From NCBI GenBank assembly GCA_023511915.1, contig JAIMAN010000020.1, positions 1-41,982 on the forward strand: 41,982 nt of DNA. The letters run 5' to 3'. Source of the stretch: Armatimonadota bacterium (GTDB lineage Bacteria; Armatimonadota; Fimbriimonadia; Fimbriimonadales; GBS-DC). Under the pieces are notes generated by a model. That model saw nothing but the letters and a program-made list of their open reading frames with translations, ran no database searches and was not told the origin of the DNA. Of the stretch, positions 11 to 38,067 are shown piece by piece; position 1 is the stretch's first letter, and each line of letters starts with the position of its first letter. Both the position numbers and the translations under genes were made by a program.

Positions 11-186
11 GGAGCTTAAAGGGGTAGTTTTTTTGCGAGCATGCCTACTCGCGGCGTTGACGAGCAGGGTATTTCTGCTGTCATGCGAGCGAGACGCTCG
101 CGTTCCCAGCACGCGCGACGCTGGGAACGCGGGCGTCCCGCCCGCCATCCCAACCGCGCGAGAAAAAACCTACCCCTTTAAGCTCC
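11..186. repeat. Nested palindromic element (family C)
   Basis: A perfect 16-base outer inverted repeat (11-26 against 171-186), extended by T-rich and A-rich stretches, encloses an imperfect palindrome. Positions 85-110 and 120-145 are reverse complements with three mismatches. Each half folds further: 85-101 (GCGAGC/GCTCGC) and 129-145 (GCGGGC/GCCCGC) are perfect small hairpins, and 101-110 pairs with 120-129. I see no protein-coding gene here. The right arm abuts a family A copy. It looks like a small non-autonomous mobile element or a structured RNA; only one copy lies in the window. Confidence 0.6.
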
Positions 187-303
187 CACGCGGTGGGAGA
201 GGGGAGCCGTGCGCCAACCCCTTTGGAGTGCTGAAGCGCAGCTTCAGCATCAGGCGGAAGCGGAGCCTCCGCACTCCATAATCCCTGCTGGGGTGAGGGC
301 AAA
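183..303. repeat. Family A dispersed repeat, copy 1 (partial)
   Basis: This copy has the family A hallmarks: the hairpin CTCCCACGCGGTGGGAG, the GGAGTGC...GCACTCC core containing GCTGAAGC and GGAAGC-type hairpins, and the terminal GGGGTGAGGGCAAA. The left terminal arm seen in complete copies is missing, possibly because element C lies there. It ends 4 bases before the -10 box of glnD, so it forms the upstream boundary of that promoter. Confidence 0.75.
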
Positions 304-3690: not shown

Positions 3691-3821
3691 CCCCCTTCCC
3701 CCTGCCCGCAGGGGGAACCGAGTTGGCGCATGGCTTGGTTCCCCTCGCGAAGCGGAGGGAACCGTGCGGGCGCTTGGCTTGGTTCCCCTCGCGCAGCGGG
3801 GGGAACCTAAAGGAGGGGGGC
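3691..3821. repeat. Family B palindromic repeats, locus 1
   Basis: Three GGTTCCC-type palindromes follow one another: 3698-3719 (partial left arm), 3737-3763 and 3781-3807. The last is followed by TAAAGGAGGGGGG. The units are GC-rich inverted repeats such as GGTTCCCCTCGCGCAGCGG..GGGAACC. The terminal AAAGGAGG resembles a ribosome-binding site but lies too far (over 50 bases) from the photolyase start to serve it. The family recurs at 22262-22410 and 33222-33256. Confidence 0.8.
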
Positions 3822-9790: not shown

Positions 9791-9903
9791 TTGGAAGCGA
9801 AGCTTCCGCCCACGCTGAAGCTGACGCTTCAGCACTCCAAACAGGTCCGCGCGTGGCTCACCCCTCTCCCGCTGTGTGGGAGAGGGGCTGGGGGTGAGGG
9901 CAA
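9791..9903. repeat. Family A dispersed repeat, copy 2 (partial)
   Basis: The copy contains GGAAGCGAAGCTTCC, the GCTGAAGC/GCTTCAGC hairpin, ACTCCAAACAGGTC, a CTCTCCC...GGGAGAG hairpin and the terminal GGGGCTGGGGGTGAGGGCAA. The left third of the full element is missing. It fills the space between the Ig-repeat gene's promoter and the recA stop; nothing else is seen there. Confidence 0.8.
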
Positions 9904-15744: not shown

Positions 15745-16812
15745 CTATTCGTTTCGCGTGACGGCTGTCCAGTAGCCATGCGTTCGTAGCGTGTTCGCAA
15801 GGGCTTTGGCGTGGTCTTCCGACTCGCACAGGGCAGCTTGCGCCGCGCCGCTGCCACACAGAATCACGCGTAGCGCGCTGCCCTGCTCCAGAAGCGTGCG
15901 TAGCTCCGCCAGCGCGGGGATGGCTTGCAGAATCGGCGCGTCGAAGTCGTTGTGCAGCAGCGGGGCGAGGTCGCGGGGCGTGCGAATGGTCGGTAGCAGG
16001 CGCATGAGGCGTTCGGTGTGGTCGGCTCGTGCGTTCGGGCTGACTGCGCCGCGTCCGAGTTGCGTATACGCCCAGCCTGTGGGGACGCCCACCCCATACG
16101 GCTTCGCCAGCACCCACCAGAAGGGGGGCAGCGTCGGCAGGGGGTGCAGCTGCTCGCCTCTACCCGTCGCAAGGGCGCACCCACCTTTCAGAAAGAAGGC
16201 GACATCCGCGCCTAACGCGCGGGCGAGGGCATACAGCGCGTCGTCGGGGAGGGCGCGCTCGTATCGGGCTGCCCAGTGGTTAAGCAGGCGCAGGGCGCAC
16301 GCGGCGTCGCTGCTGCCTCCGCCCAGCCCCGCCTGCGACGGGATGCGCTTGAGGAGTGTTGCGCGCCACGAGGGATTGCCCTCACCCCCTGTGTCCCCCT
16401 CTCCCCCCACGCGGGAGAGGGGGATATGGAGTGCGGAAGCTCCGCTTCCGCAAGCCGCTGAAGCTGACGCTTCAGCACTCCAAAAGCGTTGGCGCGCGTC
16501 TCCCCTCTCCCACAGCGTGGGAGAGGGGCTGGGGGTGAGGGCAACAAACCGCGCCACCGCCTGCCACACCAGATTGCGCGAATCGGTCGGAATCGCCTCG
16601 CGCAGGGGCGGGCTGTCGGACGGCTCTATGATGTGAATCGCGCCGCGCGCGGGGTCAAACGATTCGGGCGGGGGCAGCTCCAGCGTTAGCGTGTCGCACA
16701 GGCTGAGGGTGTGCATGACGCTGGCGACCTCGTGGTAGCCGTCGGCGCGACGCCCCAGCACCTCCAGCGTCAGGTTCAGTTTCGCGGGCGCGCGCCCCTC
16801 AAGCCTCATCAT
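15745..16812 (-). CDS. ispE: 4-diphosphocytidyl-2-C-methyl-D-erythritol kinase carrying a repeat-derived insert
   Basis: IspE phosphorylates CDP-methylerythritol in the non-mevalonate isoprenoid pathway. GHMP-kinase motifs are present: [21 protein letters not shown] at the N-terminus, [16 protein letters not shown] (ATP loop) and [13 protein letters not shown]-type C-terminus. The protein is 355 residues, clearly longer than typical IspE (about 280-300). The excess is 56 codons from a complete family A repeat (16377-16544) inserted in frame between the second helix (WQAVARFVA) and the ATP loop. ATG 16812 (or 16809) overlaps the end of aspS by 14 (or 11) bases, so translation is probably coupled. 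The enzyme is essential in this pathway, so the insert is presumably tolerated. Confidence 0.9.
16377..16544. repeat. Family A dispersed repeat, copy 3 (complete, inside ispE)
   Basis: A full element with terminal inverted repeats TTGCCCTCACCCCC and GGGGGTGAGGGCAA. Between them lie CCCCTCTCCC..GGGAGAGGGG, the GGAGTGC/GCACTCC core containing GGAAGC/GCTTCC and GCTGAAGC/GCTTCAGC hairpins, and a CCTCTCCC/GGGAGAGG hairpin. Length is 168 bases, a multiple of three, with no stop in the ispE frame. Read from ispE it encodes a Pro/Ser/Gly-rich peptide beginning [13 protein letters not shown]. Confidence 0.9.
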
Positions 16813-18583
16813 CGGGCACAATCCGTAGGTGCAACTCGCGCAGCTGCTCCTCGCTCACGGGCGAGGGCGCGCCGAACATCAGATCCACCATCGCCGTGTT
16901 TTTCGGGAAGGCGATCACATTCCGTATCGTCTCGTCGCCCGCCAGCAGCATCACGAGGCGGTCAATCCCAGGCGCAATCCCGCCGTGCGGCGGCGCGCCG
17001 TACTCGAACGCCTCCAGCAGGTGTCCGAACCGCTCCTGAATCTCGGCGTCGGAGTAGCCCAGCAGGTGGAAGATTTTATCCTGTAGGTCGCGCCGATGGA
17101 TACGGATACTGCCGCTGGCGAGTTCGTTGCCGTTGCACACGAGGTCATAGCAGTTGGCGCGTACCTTGCCGGGGTCGGTCTCCAGCAGCGGGATGTCTTC
17201 CTCACGGGGCGAGGTGAACGGGTGGTGCGACGGGTTCCACCGCTGCTCTTGTTCGTCCCACTCCAGCAGGGGGAAGTCGACCACCCACGCGAACGCCATC
17301 AGGTTCGGGTCTGCCAGTCCGAGTTCTTGTCCCATGCGGTGGCGCAGGCGGCTGAGGCACTCGTTGGCGACCTTCGGCGTATCGGCGACGATTGCCAGCA
17401 GGTCGCCCACCTGTGCGCCTGTGCGCTCGCGAATTGCCTGCAGCTCGCTCTCCGCGAGGAACTTCGCAATCGGCGAGCGCACCCCATCGGCGGTGAAGGC
17501 GATTGTTGCCAGCCCCTTCGCGCCGAACCGCTTGACGAACTCGGTCAGCTCATCAATCTGTTTGCGCGAGTAGTCGGCGCAGCCTGGCAAGCAGATGGCT
17601 TTCACAATCCCGCCCGCTTCGATCACGCTTCGGAACGCCTGAAACTCCGTCTGGCGCAGCAGGTCGGTCAGGTCGTGCAGTTCCAGTCCGAAGCGCAGGT
17701 CGGGCTTATCGGTGCCGTAGCGGGTGACGGCTTCGGCGTAGGTTAGGCGCGGGAAGGGCTTCAGCACGCGCTTGTCCGTGCAGGTCTCAATCATCCCGAT
17801 GTAGAGTTCCTCGATGAGGTTGAGGATGTCGTCTTGGGTGACGAACGACATTTCGAGGTCGAGCTGGGTGAATTCGGGTTGGCGGTCGGCGCGTGGGTCT
17901 TCGTCGCGGAAGCAGCGGGCGATTTGGAAGTAGCGCTCCACGCCCGCGACCATCAGCAGTTGCTTGAGTTGCTGGGGCGACTGCGGCAGCGCGTAGAACT
18001 TGCCCGGATAGAGGCGGCTGGGCACGAGGTAGTCGCGTGCGCCTTCGGGCGTGCTTTTGATGAGGATGGGCGTTTCGATTTCCAGAAAGCCGCGCGCCGA
18101 CAGAAAATCGCGGATGTATTTCACGATGCGGTGGCGCAGTTCGAGGCGCTGGTACATCACGGGTCGGCGCAGGTCTAAGTAGCGGTAGCGCAGGCGCACG
18201 CTCTCGTCCACCTCAAGGTTCTCCTCGTTGAGTTGGAACGGGGGCGTTTTGGAGGGGCTAAAGAGATGCAGCGCGTGCGCGAAGACCTCGATGTCGCCCG
18301 TGGCGAGTTTGGGGTTTTCCGCGCCCGCGCGTCGGCGGCGCACCGCGCCTTCAACCGCGACGCAATATTCCACGCGCAGGTCGCTCGCTTGCGCCACCAG
18401 CGCGGGGTCAATCGCGGGGTCGAACACCACCTGCACCAGTCCCGTGCGGTCACGCAAGTCCACAAACACCAGTCCGCCCAAGTCGCGAACGCGATGTACC
18501 CAGCCGTTCAGGCGCACCGTCCGCCCGATATGTTCGGGGCGCAGGACGCCGCACTCGTGTGTCCGCTGCCAAGTCGCCTTCAT
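16799..18583 (-). CDS. aspS: Aspartyl-tRNA synthetase
   Basis: A 594-residue bacterial-type class II synthetase that charges tRNA-Asp (or also tRNA-Asn if non-discriminating). The N-terminal OB-fold anticodon domain contains [22 protein letters not shown]. Catalytic motif 2 is in [19 protein letters not shown], and motif 3 in [15 protein letters not shown]. The GAD insertion expected in bacterial enzymes lies between them, consistent with the length. It heads the aspS-ispE-fliJ-transglycosylase string. The ATG at 18583 has a TACAAT box 11 bases upstream and no ribosome site. Confidence 0.96.
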
Positions 18584-22261: not shown

Positions 22262-22410
22262 GGTTCCATCCGCTGCGCGAAGGGAACCGAGATGGCACAG
22301 GCACAGTGTGCAGTTGCCCCCCTCCTTTAGGTTCCCCCCGCTGCGCGAGGGGAACCGCGCTGCACGCCCGTTCGGTTCCCCCTGCGGGCAGGGGGAACCT
22401 TAAGGAGGGG
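22262..22410. repeat. Family B palindromic repeats, locus 2
   Basis: Three GGTTCC...GGAACC palindromes are seen: 22262-22288, 22330-22356 and 22374-22399. The last two sit inside a larger inverted repeat whose arms are CCCCCTCCTTTAGGTTCCCC (from about 22317) and GGGGAACCTTAAGGAGGGGG (to 22410). The rest of the 452-base gap between clpC and the lipoprotein (21989-22440) holds a small GGCAT/ATGCC dyad next to clpC and a possible promoter, but no other gene. Confidence 0.82.
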
Positions 22411-22440
22411 GTTCGTCGCGGTTCTCCCGCAGTTTACGCT

Positions 22441-33221: not shown

Positions 33222-33256
33222 ACCCCCTCCTTAAGGTTCCCCCTGCGTGCAGGGGG
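33222..33256. repeat. Family B palindromic repeat, locus 3 (fragment)
   Basis: CCCCCTCCTTAAGGTTCCCC followed by CTGCGTGCAGGGGG: the left arm and first palindrome of a family B unit, without the right GGAACC arm. Confidence 0.7.
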
Positions 33257-33342
33257 CTGATAAGGGTACATCGGTTCGGCACTGAGTCGCTGAGGCAGAG
33301 ACGATTTTCCCCGCGCAGGCGAGAACGGGCAGGCGCGCCTTT

Positions 33343-33513
33343 TTGCCCTCACCCCCTTTGTCCCCCTCTCCCGCCTCGCGGGAGAGGGGGATTATGGAGT
33401 GCGGAAGCGAAGCTTCCGCCCATGCTGAAGCTAACGCTTCAGCACTCCAAATAGGTCAGCGTGCGGCACACCACTCTCCCACAGCGTGGGAGAGGGGCTG
33501 GGGGTGAGGGCAA
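33343..33513. repeat. Family A dispersed repeat, copy 4 (complete, intergenic)
   Basis: A complete 171-base element bounded by TTGCCCTCACCCCC and GGGGGTGAGGGCAA. Inside are CCCCCTCTCCC/GGGAGAGGGGG, GGAAGCGAAGCTTCC, GCTGAAGC/GCTTCAGC within TGGAGTGC...ACTCCA, and CTCTCCC/GGGAGAG. It closely matches the copy inside ispE. The 528-base stretch 33136-33663 holds only this repeat, the family B fragment and a TATACT box at 33620; no gene is seen. Confidence 0.9.
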
Positions 33514-33663
33514 AAAGCACCTGCACCCCGCATACAGCAAACTCAAGCGGTGTATCCTCAGTGTGTCCGCTCCCGCTCGCCTGTCGAGACCATATCGCGC
33601 AGACACTTATTACTCAGGGTATACTTCTTGCGAAGCCGAAAACCCTTACGGAGTGGTGGCGGG

Positions 33664-33928: not shown

Positions 33929-35464
33929 ATGTTGCTACACCAGATTATCGAGCGCGGCGCGGCAAACCATCCCGACAAGCCCGCGCTGATCTTCCGCGAC
34001 CAACCGATTTCGTATGCGCAGCTGTGGGGCGCGGTGAACGCCTTCGCACGCGGGCTGCGCGAGGAACTGGGCATTCAGGCAGGCGACCGCGTGGGGATTA
34101 TGCTGCCGAACCTGCCCCAGTTCGTGATTGCCTACCACGCGCTGGGCAGGCTGGGCGCAATCGCTGTGCCCGTGAACCCGCTGCTGAAAGCGCCCGAAAT
34201 CGCCTACATCTGGAACGACGCAGGGGTCAAAGCCGCCATTACCTTCCCGATGACGCTGGAGACCGTGCTGCACGCCAAACCCGAAATCCCCAGCATGCAG
34301 ACCGTGCTGGTGGTCGGCGCGGAGGGCGACCTGCCCGACGGCGTGCGCCCGTTCGACAGCCTCATGAAGCCCACTGGCGACCCGCTGCCCCCCGCGCCCG
34401 TCAGCGTCCACGACCCCGTCGTCTTCATCTACACCTCGGGCACGACGGGCTTCCCCAAAGGCGTGATGCTCTCCAGCGACAACATCCTGTTCGATATCGA
34501 GGCGTGCCAAGCGCTGCTGGAGTTAGACCCCGACGAGCGGTTCCTGAGCGTACTGCCGCTGTTCCACTCGTTCGGACAGACGGTGTGCATGAACTTCTGC
34601 CTGTGGCTGGGCGGAACCAGCGTGCTGATGGAACGCTTTATGCCCCAGCAGGCGTTGGACACGATCGAGCGGCATCGCATCACGCTGTTTCCTGGGGTGC
34701 CCGCGATGTACGCTGCCATCCTGCAAGTGCCCGCCGAGCGCGAGTACGACCTGAGCGCCCTCAAGTACTGCGTATCGGGCGGTGCGCCGATGCCTGAACC
34801 CATCCAACGCGCGTTCGAAGCGCGATTCGGCTGCGCCATTTTGGAAGGCGACGGACCCACCGAGTGTGCGCCCGTCACCAGCGTGAACCCGCCCCCACAC
34901 AAGGGCGTGCGCAAAATCGGGTCGGTCGGCATTCCGCTGCCTGGCGTTGAAATTAAAATCTTCGACGAGAACGACAACGAACTGCCGACGGGCGAAATCG
35001 GCGAAATCGTCGTGCGCGGGCGCAATGTGATGCTGGGCTACTACAACAACCCCGAAGCGACCGCCGAAGCGATGCGCAACGGCTGGTATCACACGGGCGA
35101 CATGGGCAAGTTCGACGAGGACGGCTACCTCTACATCGTCGATCGCAAGAAGGATATGATTATCGTCGGGGGCATCAATGTGTACCCCAGCGAGGTGGAG
35201 CGCGTGCTGATGGAGCATCCTGCGGTGGCGATGTGCGCGGTGATTGGCAAGCCCGACCCCGAACGCGGCGAGGTGCCCGTCGCCGTGATTGTGCCCAAGC
35301 CCGACACGCAGCCCGACCCACGCGAGATCATCCGCTTCGCCCGCGAGCGACTGGCAAACTTCAAAGTGCCCCGCGAGGTTATCTTCCGCAGCGAACTGCC
35401 CCTCTCCAACACGGGCAAGGTGCTGAAGCGTCTGCTTAAGAAAGAGTTGGAGCTGGAGGCATGA
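33929..35464 (+). CDS. Long-chain-fatty-acid--CoA ligase (AMP-forming)
   Basis: A 511-residue acyl-adenylate synthetase. The phosphate loop is FIYTSGTTGFPKG, followed by EGDGPTECAPV, the YHTGDMGKFDEDGYLYIVDR hinge region, IIVGGINVYPSEVE and the catalytic lysine in NTGKVLKR. It activates fatty acids with ATP and CoA for degradation or lipid synthesis; chain length cannot be read from sequence. The ATG at 33929 has AGGAGG. The stop overlaps the next gene's ATG (ATGA at 35461), so the two are translationally coupled. Confidence 0.92.
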   Translation: MLLHQIIERGAANHPDKPALIFRDQPISYAQLWGAVNAFARGLREELGIQAGDRVGIMLPNLPQFVIAYHALGRLGAIAVPVNPLLKAPEIAYIWNDAGVKAAITFPMTLETVLHAKPEIPSMQTVLVVGAEGDLPDGVRPFDSLMKPTGDPLPPAPVSVHDPVVFIYTSGTTGFPKGVMLSSDNILFDIEACQALLELDPDERFLSVLPLFHSFGQTVCMNFCLWLGGTSVLMERFMPQQALDTIERHRITLFPGVPAMYAAILQVPAEREYDLSALKYCVSGGAPMPEPIQRAFEARFGCAILEGDGPTECAPVTSVNPPPHKGVRKIGSVGIPLPGVEIKIFDENDNELPTGEIGEIVVRGRNVMLGYYNNPEATAEAMRNGWYHTGDMGKFDEDGYLYIVDRKKDMIIVGGINVYPSEVERVLMEHPAVAMCAVIGKPDPERGEVPVAVIVPKPDTQPDPREIIRFARERLANFKVPREVIFRSELPLSNTGKVLKRLLKKELELEA

Positions 35465-38067
35465 GGCGAATTTTCGCGCTGTGCGGGCTAATGATTGGGG
35501 TCGGCGTTGTGTTCGCCCTCACCCCCAGCCCCTCGCCCACTGCGTGGGCGAGGGGAGCCGCAATCGCCCTCACCCCCAGCCCCTCTCCCACACAGTGGGC
35601 GAGAGGAGCCGACTCCCCCTCTCCCAACTCGTTGGGAGAGGGGGACAAAGGGGGTGAGGGCAAATCCGTAATCTCCCCATCGCCGTCGGAAACTGTACCA
35701 TCGTCGATAGAAACTGTACCATCGCCATCGGAAACTGTACCATCGACGATAGAGACCTCGCGATCGGCGATCGCGACCATACAATCGGGAAACGCGACTG
35801 CCCAGCCTTCCAAGTCGCACACACTGGGCGTCGTGCTGGACTACCCTGCAGGCGACCTCGCCGCGCAACTAAGCCAACTCAAGGCGCAGGGCGTGCAGGA
35901 GGTGGTCATTCGCCTCGATGCGCTGCCCAGCCGCGAGGCGTGGCAATCGCTGCTGGAGACGGCGGAGGCGTCAGGGCTGGAGTGGCGACTGTGGCTGGCG
36001 AGCCTGCCCCGCACGGATGGCTGGACTATCGCGCCCGAACGCTATCGGATGGCAGGCAACGCCGACGGGGTCTACACGCTGATTGCGCCCGACGCGACGC
36101 GCCTGATGCTGGCGGTCTCGCCGCGCGAGACGCCGTACCTGCACCTGAGCAGTCTGCTGGAACTCAGCAACGGGCGCGCGACGACCGCCATCGGCGACAC
36201 CGCCGAGAGCGTGCTGCTGCTGTACCCCCTGCGCAAAGACGCCATGCCCGACCTGTGGGAGGGCTGGGACGCCTATCGCGACGCGCTGCTGCACCTGCTG
36301 ACGCACCGCGCCCCCAAGCAGGGCTTTCGCGGGTGGCTGCTGCAGAGCGACTGGGACATCCTGAGCGTCAGCACGCTGCCGACCAGCCCGCTGGCGCAGG
36401 CGGAATGGCTGGCGCACCTCAAGACGCGCTACCCCGACCTGACCGAACTGGAACGCGCGTGGGACACCAGCACGAAACTGGAGCGCCACGAGCAAGCCAC
36501 GCGGCTGATGCCCCTCTGGCGCGAGGGGCGCGGGCTGCCGTACCTCGTCGCGCCCGACGAGTCGGTCAAACCGCAGGAGTTAGACCCCAACCGCAGCCGC
36601 TTCTGGGACGACTGGCGGGCGTTTCTGGCGGAGCGGTGGCGCGTGCTGTTGGCGGGGCTGCGCACGATGCTGACGCGCCACACGCCGAACGCCGAGTTCA
36701 CCGTGCTACAGACCGCGCCCGACCCCGCCGAGTTGCCCTTGCCCGACGCCTTCGCCGACCCGCAGTTGCCCCTTGGCTGGTATCTGCCCGCCGCGCGACG
36801 CGACCAGTGGCGGACGCACCTGCTGCTGGAGACCCTGCGCCGTGAACGCACACTGGAGCCGCTAAGCACGCTGATTGCGGAGTGGTCAGCCGACGACGCC
36901 GAACGCGCCAGCATGTTCCAGACCTTCGCGCGGGAGATGGGCATCGAGCGCGTCTACTGGCGCGGGCGCGTGCCCGAAGAGGCGTGGCGCACGCTAACGC
37001 AGACCGACGCCCCGCCCGACGCGCTCACCCTGCAGCCGTTCCCCGCGACGCTGTGGGGGCTGACCGAAATCCGACGCTACCGCAGCGGCTGGTGGGCGCC
37101 CAGCGCGCAGCCCGACCTGCAGCCGCTGCTGTGGGGCTTCGAGATTCACGGCTTCCAGAAGGCGACCGAGGTGCGCACGCTGGACGCGCAGGGCAGGATG
37201 GAGATTACGCGCCAGCTGGAGCTGTGCCTGTGGGTGGACGAAGGCGAGCGGGAGATTACCCTGCGCCGTTTTGACCGCGCGCCGCTAACGGCGTTTGACC
37301 TGAACGGGCAGGCGGTTCGGCTGGATGTGCGCGGCGACCGCGTGCGCCTGCGCGTCGGCGCGACGCCTGTGCGCATTCGCGGCTTCCAGAGCGAGCCAAT
37401 CTGCGAGACCAGCGCGGAGGCGTGGACGGCGCGGGTCGCCGACCTGTTCAAGCGGGGCAACCCGACAGGGCAGGACGCGCGGGTGCTGAAGTTCAACTTC
37501 GACAACGCGGTCAGCCTCTATCGGCGCAACCCATCGCAGGGCTTCGCGCTGCTGCGCACCAACTGGTTCGAGTTCGAGCGGGCGTTTCAGCCGTATCGCT
37601 GGATTGAGGCGGAGAGCGCGCGCCAGCACGAGTTCGGCACGGTTCGCCGTGACCCCGCAATGAGCGGCGGCGCAACGCTGTGGCTGAACACGCCGATGCC
37701 TATCGAGAGCGCGTCGGCGACCTATGCGTTTAGCCTGCGCGAGGCGCAAGCCTACACGCTGTGGCTGGCAGTGCGCGGCGTCCCGTCGGGCAGTGTGGAG
37801 TGGCAGATTGCGCCCGCAGGCGAGGCGGAAGCGACAGCCCCAGCGGAGGGCACAGCGACTCTGTCTGCCGAGCGCGCCGTCGCCCGCTACGCCGACCAGT
37901 GCTACTGGCTGCCGCTGGGTGTGGCGACGCTAAAAGCGGGCGAGTATCGCCTCACGCTGCGCTGGAAGCCGAGCGCGCCCCAGCCGCCGCACTATGCCGA
38001 GTGGGACGCGATTCTGATTGCCCCGCCCAGCGTGCAGCCGAAGCACATCCTGCCGCCGACCTATTGA
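35461..38067 (+). CDS. Secreted protein with GH42-like TIM-barrel features and repeat-derived linker
   Basis: An 868-residue exported protein. A signal peptide (MRRIFALCGLMIGVGVVFA) is followed at once by ~50 residues encoded by family A repeat DNA ([13 protein letters not shown] and [13 protein letters not shown]), then six 7-residue tandem repeats (PSPSETV type). The folded part starts near TLGVVLDYPAGDL and looks like a (beta/alpha)8 domain; LTELERAWDTSTKLE and FWDDWRAFLAERW resemble GH42-type galactosidases. Catalytic residues cannot be placed with confidence. C-terminal parts look beta-rich, like carbohydrate-binding modules. It is coupled to the upstream ligase gene by an ATGA overlap, although a functional link is not obvious. 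Confidence 0.72.
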   Translation: MRRIFALCGLMIGVGVVFALTPSPSPTAWARGAAIALTPSPSPTQWARGADSPSPNSLGEGDKGGEGKSVISPSPSETVPSSIETVPSPSETVPSTIETSRSAIATIQSGNATAQPSKSHTLGVVLDYPAGDLAAQLSQLKAQGVQEVVIRLDALPSREAWQSLLETAEASGLEWRLWLASLPRTDGWTIAPERYRMAGNADGVYTLIAPDATRLMLAVSPRETPYLHLSSLLELSNGRATTAIGDTAESVLLLYPLRKDAMPDLWEGWDAYRDALLHLLTHRAPKQGFRGWLLQSDWDILSVSTLPTSPLAQAEWLAHLKTRYPDLTELERAWDTSTKLERHEQATRLMPLWREGRGLPYLVAPDESVKPQELDPNRSRFWDDWRAFLAERWRVLLAGLRTMLTRHTPNAEFTVLQTAPDPAELPLPDAFADPQLPLGWYLPAARRDQWRTHLLLETLRRERTLEPLSTLIAEWSADDAERASMFQTFAREMGIERVYWRGRVPEEAWRTLTQTDAPPDALTLQPFPATLWGLTEIRRYRSGWWAPSAQPDLQPLLWGFEIHGFQKATEVRTLDAQGRMEITRQLELCLWVDEGEREITLRRFDRAPLTAFDLNGQAVRLDVRGDRVRLRVGATPVRIRGFQSEPICETSAEAWTARVADLFKRGNPTGQDARVLKFNFDNAVSLYRRNPSQGFALLRTNWFEFERAFQPYRWIEAESARQHEFGTVRRDPAMSGGATLWLNTPMPIESASATYAFSLREAQAYTLWLAVRGVPSGSVEWQIAPAGEAEATAPAEGTATLSAERAVARYADQCYWLPLGVATLKAGEYRLTLRWKPSAPQPPHYAEWDAILIAPPSVQPKHILPPTY
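35514..35663. repeat. Family A terminal-arm array, copy 5 (coding)
   Basis: Two tandem left arms (GCCCTCACCCCCAGCCCCT plus a GCCCAC/GTGGGC hairpin each) and one CCCCCTCTCCCAAC/GTTGGGAGAGGGGG hairpin end in GGGGGTGAGGGCAAA. The central GGAGTGC core is missing. The 150 bases are in frame with the surrounding gene and lie directly at the signal-peptide cleavage region. Confidence 0.85.
35677..35802 (+). repeat. Six 21-base tandem repeats (7-residue units)
   Basis: Units start at 35677, 35698, 35719, 35740, 35761 and 35782, with consensus CCATCGNCGNNNGAAACTGTA. Units 1 and 3 are nearly identical, as are 2 and 4, so growth was probably by 42-base doublets; units 5 and 6 have diverged. Encoded heptads read PSPSETV, PSSIETV, PSPSETV, PSTIETS and so on, forming a flexible linker. 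Confidence 0.85.

Follow-up and report, generated by a model that had tools for sequence, protein, structure and literature searches.

The repeat at positions 33343-33513 lies in a window of 41,982 nucleotides, the whole stretch of DNA analysed, which is contig 113 of a 2.73-Mb Armatimonadota metagenome-assembled genome (MAG; 122 contigs, 98% complete) whose RecA is 84% identical to that of 'Bacterium HR15' and 80% identical to that of a Fimbriimonadia MAG. The repeat is the core of a larger element of 305 bp (33257-33561, plus strand), delimited by flanks that are alike in ~15 copies far past the TTGCCC/GGGCAA tips, to CTGATAAGGGTACA on the left (33257) and TGTACCCTTATCAG on the right (...CCTCAG, 33561), and by terminal repeats that match a resident insertion sequence (IS). 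The inverted tips of the core, TTGCCCTCACCCCC/GGGGGTGAGGGCAA, which a sequence-only reading had taken for the ends of the element, are real, but the shared sequence runs out beyond them. From the outside inwards, the plus-strand element consists of a MITE with a left end (33257-33282), a left arm (33283-33342), which is mostly 83-95% alike across other copies, and a right arm (33514-33561), the terminal repeat of which has decayed in the window copy (TGTATCCTCAG); of a middle layer between the two tips (33343-33513), which is an inverted pair of intrastrand-triplex motifs (TM); and of an inner layer of 55 bp (33395-33449), a REPIN built from two different REPs in inverted orientation (TGGAGTGCGGAAGC... 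/ ...GCTTCAGCACTCCA). The left TM unit (33345-33390), recognized by covariance model R1, reads CCCCCTCTCCC-loop-GGGAGAGGGGG-ACAAA-GGGGGTGAGGGC on the minus strand, and the right TM unit (33471-33511) is on the plus strand. This arrangement is very probably a nest of three non-autonomous mobile DNAs, with the MITE outside, the TM pair in the middle and the REPIN at the centre.

The four other loci of the window that had been assigned to the same modular element are all present, but they carry different assortments of the modules, so that the single 'family A' gives way to three nested families that would have different movers. At 16376-16544 (plus strand), a TM-REPIN-TM composite without MITE arms adds ~56 codons in-frame to ispE, the gene for 4-diphosphocytidyl-2-C-methyl-D-erythritol kinase (15745-16821, minus strand), which stays open through the insert. 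Three TM units at 35513-35663, with no strand assigned, are read in-frame as part of a hypothetical protein (ORF 35461-38067, plus strand), close to its N-terminus; a 21-bp tandem repeat coding ETVPSPS-like units (35677-35781) follows directly in the same protein. The two remaining loci are shortened copies, one with a REPIN that lacks its 5' end, the linker and the right TM unit (9791-9903, plus strand), the other with a REPIN and decayed TM ends (183-303, minus strand); that partial copies break at hairpin boundaries is roughly, though not exactly, true. Searches of the genome, from which all copy counts outside the extracted stretches derive, recovered many copies with common ends: the tip TTGCCCTCACCCCC/GGGGGTGAGGGCAA has 43 exact matches in the 2.73 Mb (reversed control, 0), and BLAST found ~20 relatives of the 171-bp copy near full length at 84-93% identity, plus dozens of partial ones. 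The earlier description of a repeated, terminally inverted and non-autonomous element holds, and the anatomy points to movement in trans.

The outer layer is tied to a resident IS by its ends and by its target duplication. With up to two mismatches, the 14-mer end of the MITE has 49 matches in the genome versus 2 in the control. Among the 11 copies with both ends, the identity between the two flanks at exactly 11 bp is 0.59 versus 0.34 for shuffled partners, a value reached in 0 of 2000 shuffles, and no other duplication length between 4 and 14 bp rose above shuffles in the same paired copies; at the window copy itself (33257-33561), a target duplication is not detectable. A longer element with MITE-like ends is collapsed at contig ends in the assembly, its left part at three of them and its right part at three. 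Joining one left and one right part via an overlap of 77 bp gives an IS of 1174 bp with inverted ends of ~27 bp, and the MITE matches it in 22 of 26 positions left-to-left and likewise right-to-right. The IS shows a target duplication of its own, identical at 10 of 11 positions (GAGGTTAGGAG/GAGGTTGGGAG, at two contig ends). Its transposase is IS4-like by a match to NF033591 that lies below the cut-off (E 2.2e-17, 63 bits, cut-off 152), and the assembled copy, which is frame-shifted near the C-terminus, gave no Pfam match. A target duplication of ~11 bp is characteristic of IS4-family insertion sequences. The relatives searched contain no close homologue of the IS, the best being 50-59% identical in G012, and no homologue was found in viral contigs. 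In being short and non-coding, with ends in common with a resident IS and a duplication of ~11 bp, the outer layer resembles MITEs of IS4-family ISs, from which it differs in that two other repeat families are carried inside it. Yet another repeat family (CCCCCTCCTTAAGGTTCCCCCTGCGGGCAGGGGGAACC; 33222-33256, 22378-22412, 3696-3821 and 22316-22397 in the window) adjoins the MITE at 33256 and borders other MITE copies, and the MITE may often insert into this repeat.

The inner layer likewise has a candidate mover in the genome, as a search for a REP-associated transposase, proposed from the sequence alone, was successful. A RAYT gene at ~C111:34348-34894 is preceded by four forward REPs and followed by four inverted REPs, which are the same REPs as those in the element; its product matches NCBIfam NF047646 (REP_Tyr_transpos) with 100.7 bits (E 6.6e-29, cut-off 80) and Pfam Y1_Tnp above the cut-off. 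REP heads have 178 exact matches in the genome (control, 0), and 51 REPINs are dispersed as inverted REP doublets in the sequence examined. A RAYT gene bordered by inverted REPs and REP doublets dispersed genome-wide are the hallmarks of known REPIN/RAYT systems (Nunvar, 2010, PMC2817692; Bertels and Rainey, 2011, PMC3116915), for which Nunvar (2010) found no homologues outside gammaproteobacteria, whereas the host here is an armatimonadote, with TM pairs and MITEs as vehicles of the REPIN. The REP sequence (TGGAGTGC) has the head TGGAGT(G) rather than GTAG; the REPs are accordingly not placed in the GTAG superfamily, and the general REP/RAYT assignment still fits.

The middle layer is, by its sequence design, an inverted pair of intrastrand triplex motifs. 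Each half, CCCCTCTCCC-loop-GGGAGAGGGG-CT-GGGGGTGAGGGC, matches the motif TM, and the two halves face each other; 74 distinct units combine a pyrimidine-purine hairpin with a following mirror-symmetric purine third strand in the form given in Table 1 of Holder et al. (2015; PMC4666352). TM was described as CCCTCTCCC-loop-GGGAGAGGG-CC-GGGGTGAGGGC, sometimes in inverted pairs and in high copy, and is known from >260 bacterial genomes; for the E. coli motif, triplex formation has been shown (Holder et al., 2015). The covariance model finds at least 157 TM units in this genome, at least 155 in G010 and at least 171 in G009, all lower bounds as the first scoring pass took a limited number of candidates, and 0 in two genomes from this order. 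What lies between the two halves varies: a short spacer, a GGGCGCACCGCCGTGCGCCC hairpin or a REPIN. While sequence design, inverted pairing and high copy number are common to TM-ECO and the TM pairs described here, TM-ECO was found to be always intergenic and never near mobility functions (Holder et al., 2015), whereas the pairs of this genome are cargo of a MITE with an 11-bp duplication and also stand in-frame in essential genes.

The best overall explanation, to which we assign a probability of roughly 0.85, is a MITE carrying TM-REPIN-TM with the IS4-like transposase and the RAYT as movers. The IS transposase, as the shared ends and the duplication suggest, would move the whole 305-bp package and leave the 11-bp target duplication. 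The TM pair would have entered the MITE, most simply once as the junctions are alike across copies, and would then have been amplified with it, and a REPIN of the resident RAYT would have inserted in the middle of a TM pair. As most full copies share the REPIN, the same left junction and a similar linker, the TM-REPIN-TM composite itself appears to have been amplified. Two of the three layers probably have their mover elsewhere in the same genome; that these transposases do the moving is read from the anatomy of the element.

TM pairs outside the MITE would have had to move by a route other than the MITE. A tentative proposal, which we consider possible rather than probable, is that TM pairs move independently, by means of a mover of their own. 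Such a unit would enter loops of essential enzymes that tolerate it (ispE in most of the species tested in the genus), write a stereotyped peptide there and account for the presence of TM in hundreds of unrelated bacterial genomes. Alternatively, TM pairs might not be mobile themselves, lone copies being old MITEs that have lost both arms or products of gene conversion between hairpins. The junction and linker sequences common to MITE-borne and lone copies are consistent with such an origin, and so is the fact that neither a mover nor, with 66 combinations of end and length (best p 0.02), a convincing target duplication was found for lone TM pairs. However, lone copies stop sharply at the same tips and show no remnant of an arm, and TM pairs are abundant in species that lack a close homologue of this IS, which makes immobility of the pairs rather unlikely. 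A second Y1_Tnp gene (C111:22861-23181) was considered as a possible mover of TM pairs, and neither TM nor REP sequences are located near it or near its counterparts. These counterparts occur in most genomes of the genus, NQVHLV replaces the usual HUH motif, and the gene looks like a domesticated transposase.

Composites or TM-only units without MITE arms are located in open frames of the conserved genes ispE, lplA, ybeY, dapF, apbE, pabB and a gene for a GCS2-like ligase, while the in-frame insert in a uvrD-like helicase gene consists of REPINs only. An outer-membrane-like protein has an insert in its N-terminal part with a possible MITE right arm, and a tamB-like gene holds one whole MITE. 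The host enzymes gain 30-60 residues as a low-complexity loop. TM and REP sequences lack stop codons in several of their frames, so that a copy landing in a gene would be retained if it adds whole codons. All five copies in ispE, lplA, ybeY, dapF and apbE have a core length divisible by three, compared with 7, 5 and 11 copies in the length classes 0, 1 and 2 among those not validated as intragenic, proportions that are biased as the copies examined were gathered by similarity to the composite. Pfam domains lie on either side of the insert or run across it in ybeY, dapF, apbE and the uvrD-like helicase gene, and ispE with its insert scores 159 bits with TIGR00154 (cut-off 138.7). The sequences suggest that the enzymes stay functional and that the inserts are translated.

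In IspE, alignment to a solved structure (4dxl) places the insert in the gap from chain residue 92 to 105, immediately ahead of the conserved glycine-rich motif. At the same loop, within the genus, G000, G009 and G010 retain an intact TM insert, G004, G006 and G008 have an eroded one and G005 has a relic tip, with no TM sequence in G001. The ispE gene of G009 contains two TM pairs. While G010 has a TM pair without REPIN, the genome under study has TM-REPIN-TM with the same right-hand boundary; the two pairs are in opposite orientation, so that they may be separate insertions or a single one that was inverted or converted; the simplest reading of the order of events is that the TM pair came first and the REPIN later. 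A different repeat coding SSAGTPTVR units also stands in-frame in ispE of G008 (L216, L229). The dapF genes of G003, G004 and G006 have a longer loop at the site of the insert with no TM sequence where readable, which makes the dapF insert look particular to this genome. That the copies in genes are pseudogenes or assembly chimeras rather than translated inserts is conceivable for a MAG with contigs that end in repeats; yet the frames are open over hundreds of codons with Pfam/NCBIfam matches on both sides, independent MAGs of other species have TM at the same ispE loop, eroding there by in-frame deletions, and genes of this kind are normally single-copy and essential, which makes this explanation very unlikely.

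The presence of a RAYT with cognate REPs and the invariably central position of the REPIN in full copies could also be accommodated by one single element, a large REPIN/BIME moved wholly by the RAYT, in which the outer arms would be degenerate REPs. Matches to the REPs of the RAYT are limited to the inner 55 bp, though, and an 11-bp duplication and the ends of an IS4-like IS do not fit the single-strand insertion of HUH enzymes. Moreover, other genomes contain TM without REPIN, and also REPIN without TM in quite different elements with terminal inverted repeats: in G010 (loci L294-L313), the same REPIN is centred in at least two such elements (TAAGTGCCTTTGC/GCAAAGGCACTTA ends and TACCAATCTGC..AGTTCGTAA ends), and no target duplication was found for the REPIN-carrying terminally inverted element of G010. 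Together with a copy in the present genome that consists of MITE and REPIN without TM (C50:8606-8778), these elements indicate that REPINs ride several vehicles, and a single RAYT-moved element is highly improbable. Least credible of all is a structured RNA or a regulatory element, such as an mRNA stabiliser or attenuator, maintained because of its cloverleaf. A single strand does fold very stably (-119.8 kcal/mol, z = -11.9 versus shuffles), and several copies are intergenic near gene starts, but transposon ends and REPs, being inverted repeats, give rise to such stability by themselves, the arms present differ between copies, an Rfam search gave no match and covariation among the 16 full copies does not exceed shuffles (2 pairs changed on both sides versus 1.8 expected), so that the cloverleaf is best understood as a side effect of inverted repeats lying inside one another.

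For the nested MITE with its two candidate movers, the single components are known: MITEs, REPINs with RAYTs and TM motifs, and also in-frame insertions of palindromic repeats into unrelated genes that apparently still work, namely Rickettsia palindromic elements and intragenic GTAG/CGTC REPs (Di Nocera, 2013, PMC3733652). The likeness to the Rickettsia elements is in the mode of insertion, in-frame and in unrelated genes, the function of which is inferred here; the elements are not filed as RPE. What is inserted here is a TM pair or a TM-REPIN-TM composite, and candidate movers exist for two of the three layers. Three features are new with respect to the literature searched: the nest of three layers together with its two candidate movers, the carriage of TM pairs by a transposon and the repeated presence of in-frame TM pairs in essential genes. 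That TM motifs occur both inside a transposable element whose target duplication is defined and as stand-alone units makes their spread testable. The nest also shows how small repeats hitch-hike on one another, the REPIN riding in TM and MITE here and in other terminally inverted elements in a relative, and the ispE series is a natural record of mobile DNA that was turned into protein sequence and then eroded in-frame.

Elsewhere in the genome, the tip of the element provides the stop codon (TGA/TAA) of the upstream gene at C61:73775-73940 and in C34 near 174-392, and the two proteins stopped in this way have a near-identical NFGSGC end. A poly-G run at a contig end (C116:6570-6661) is an assembly artefact.
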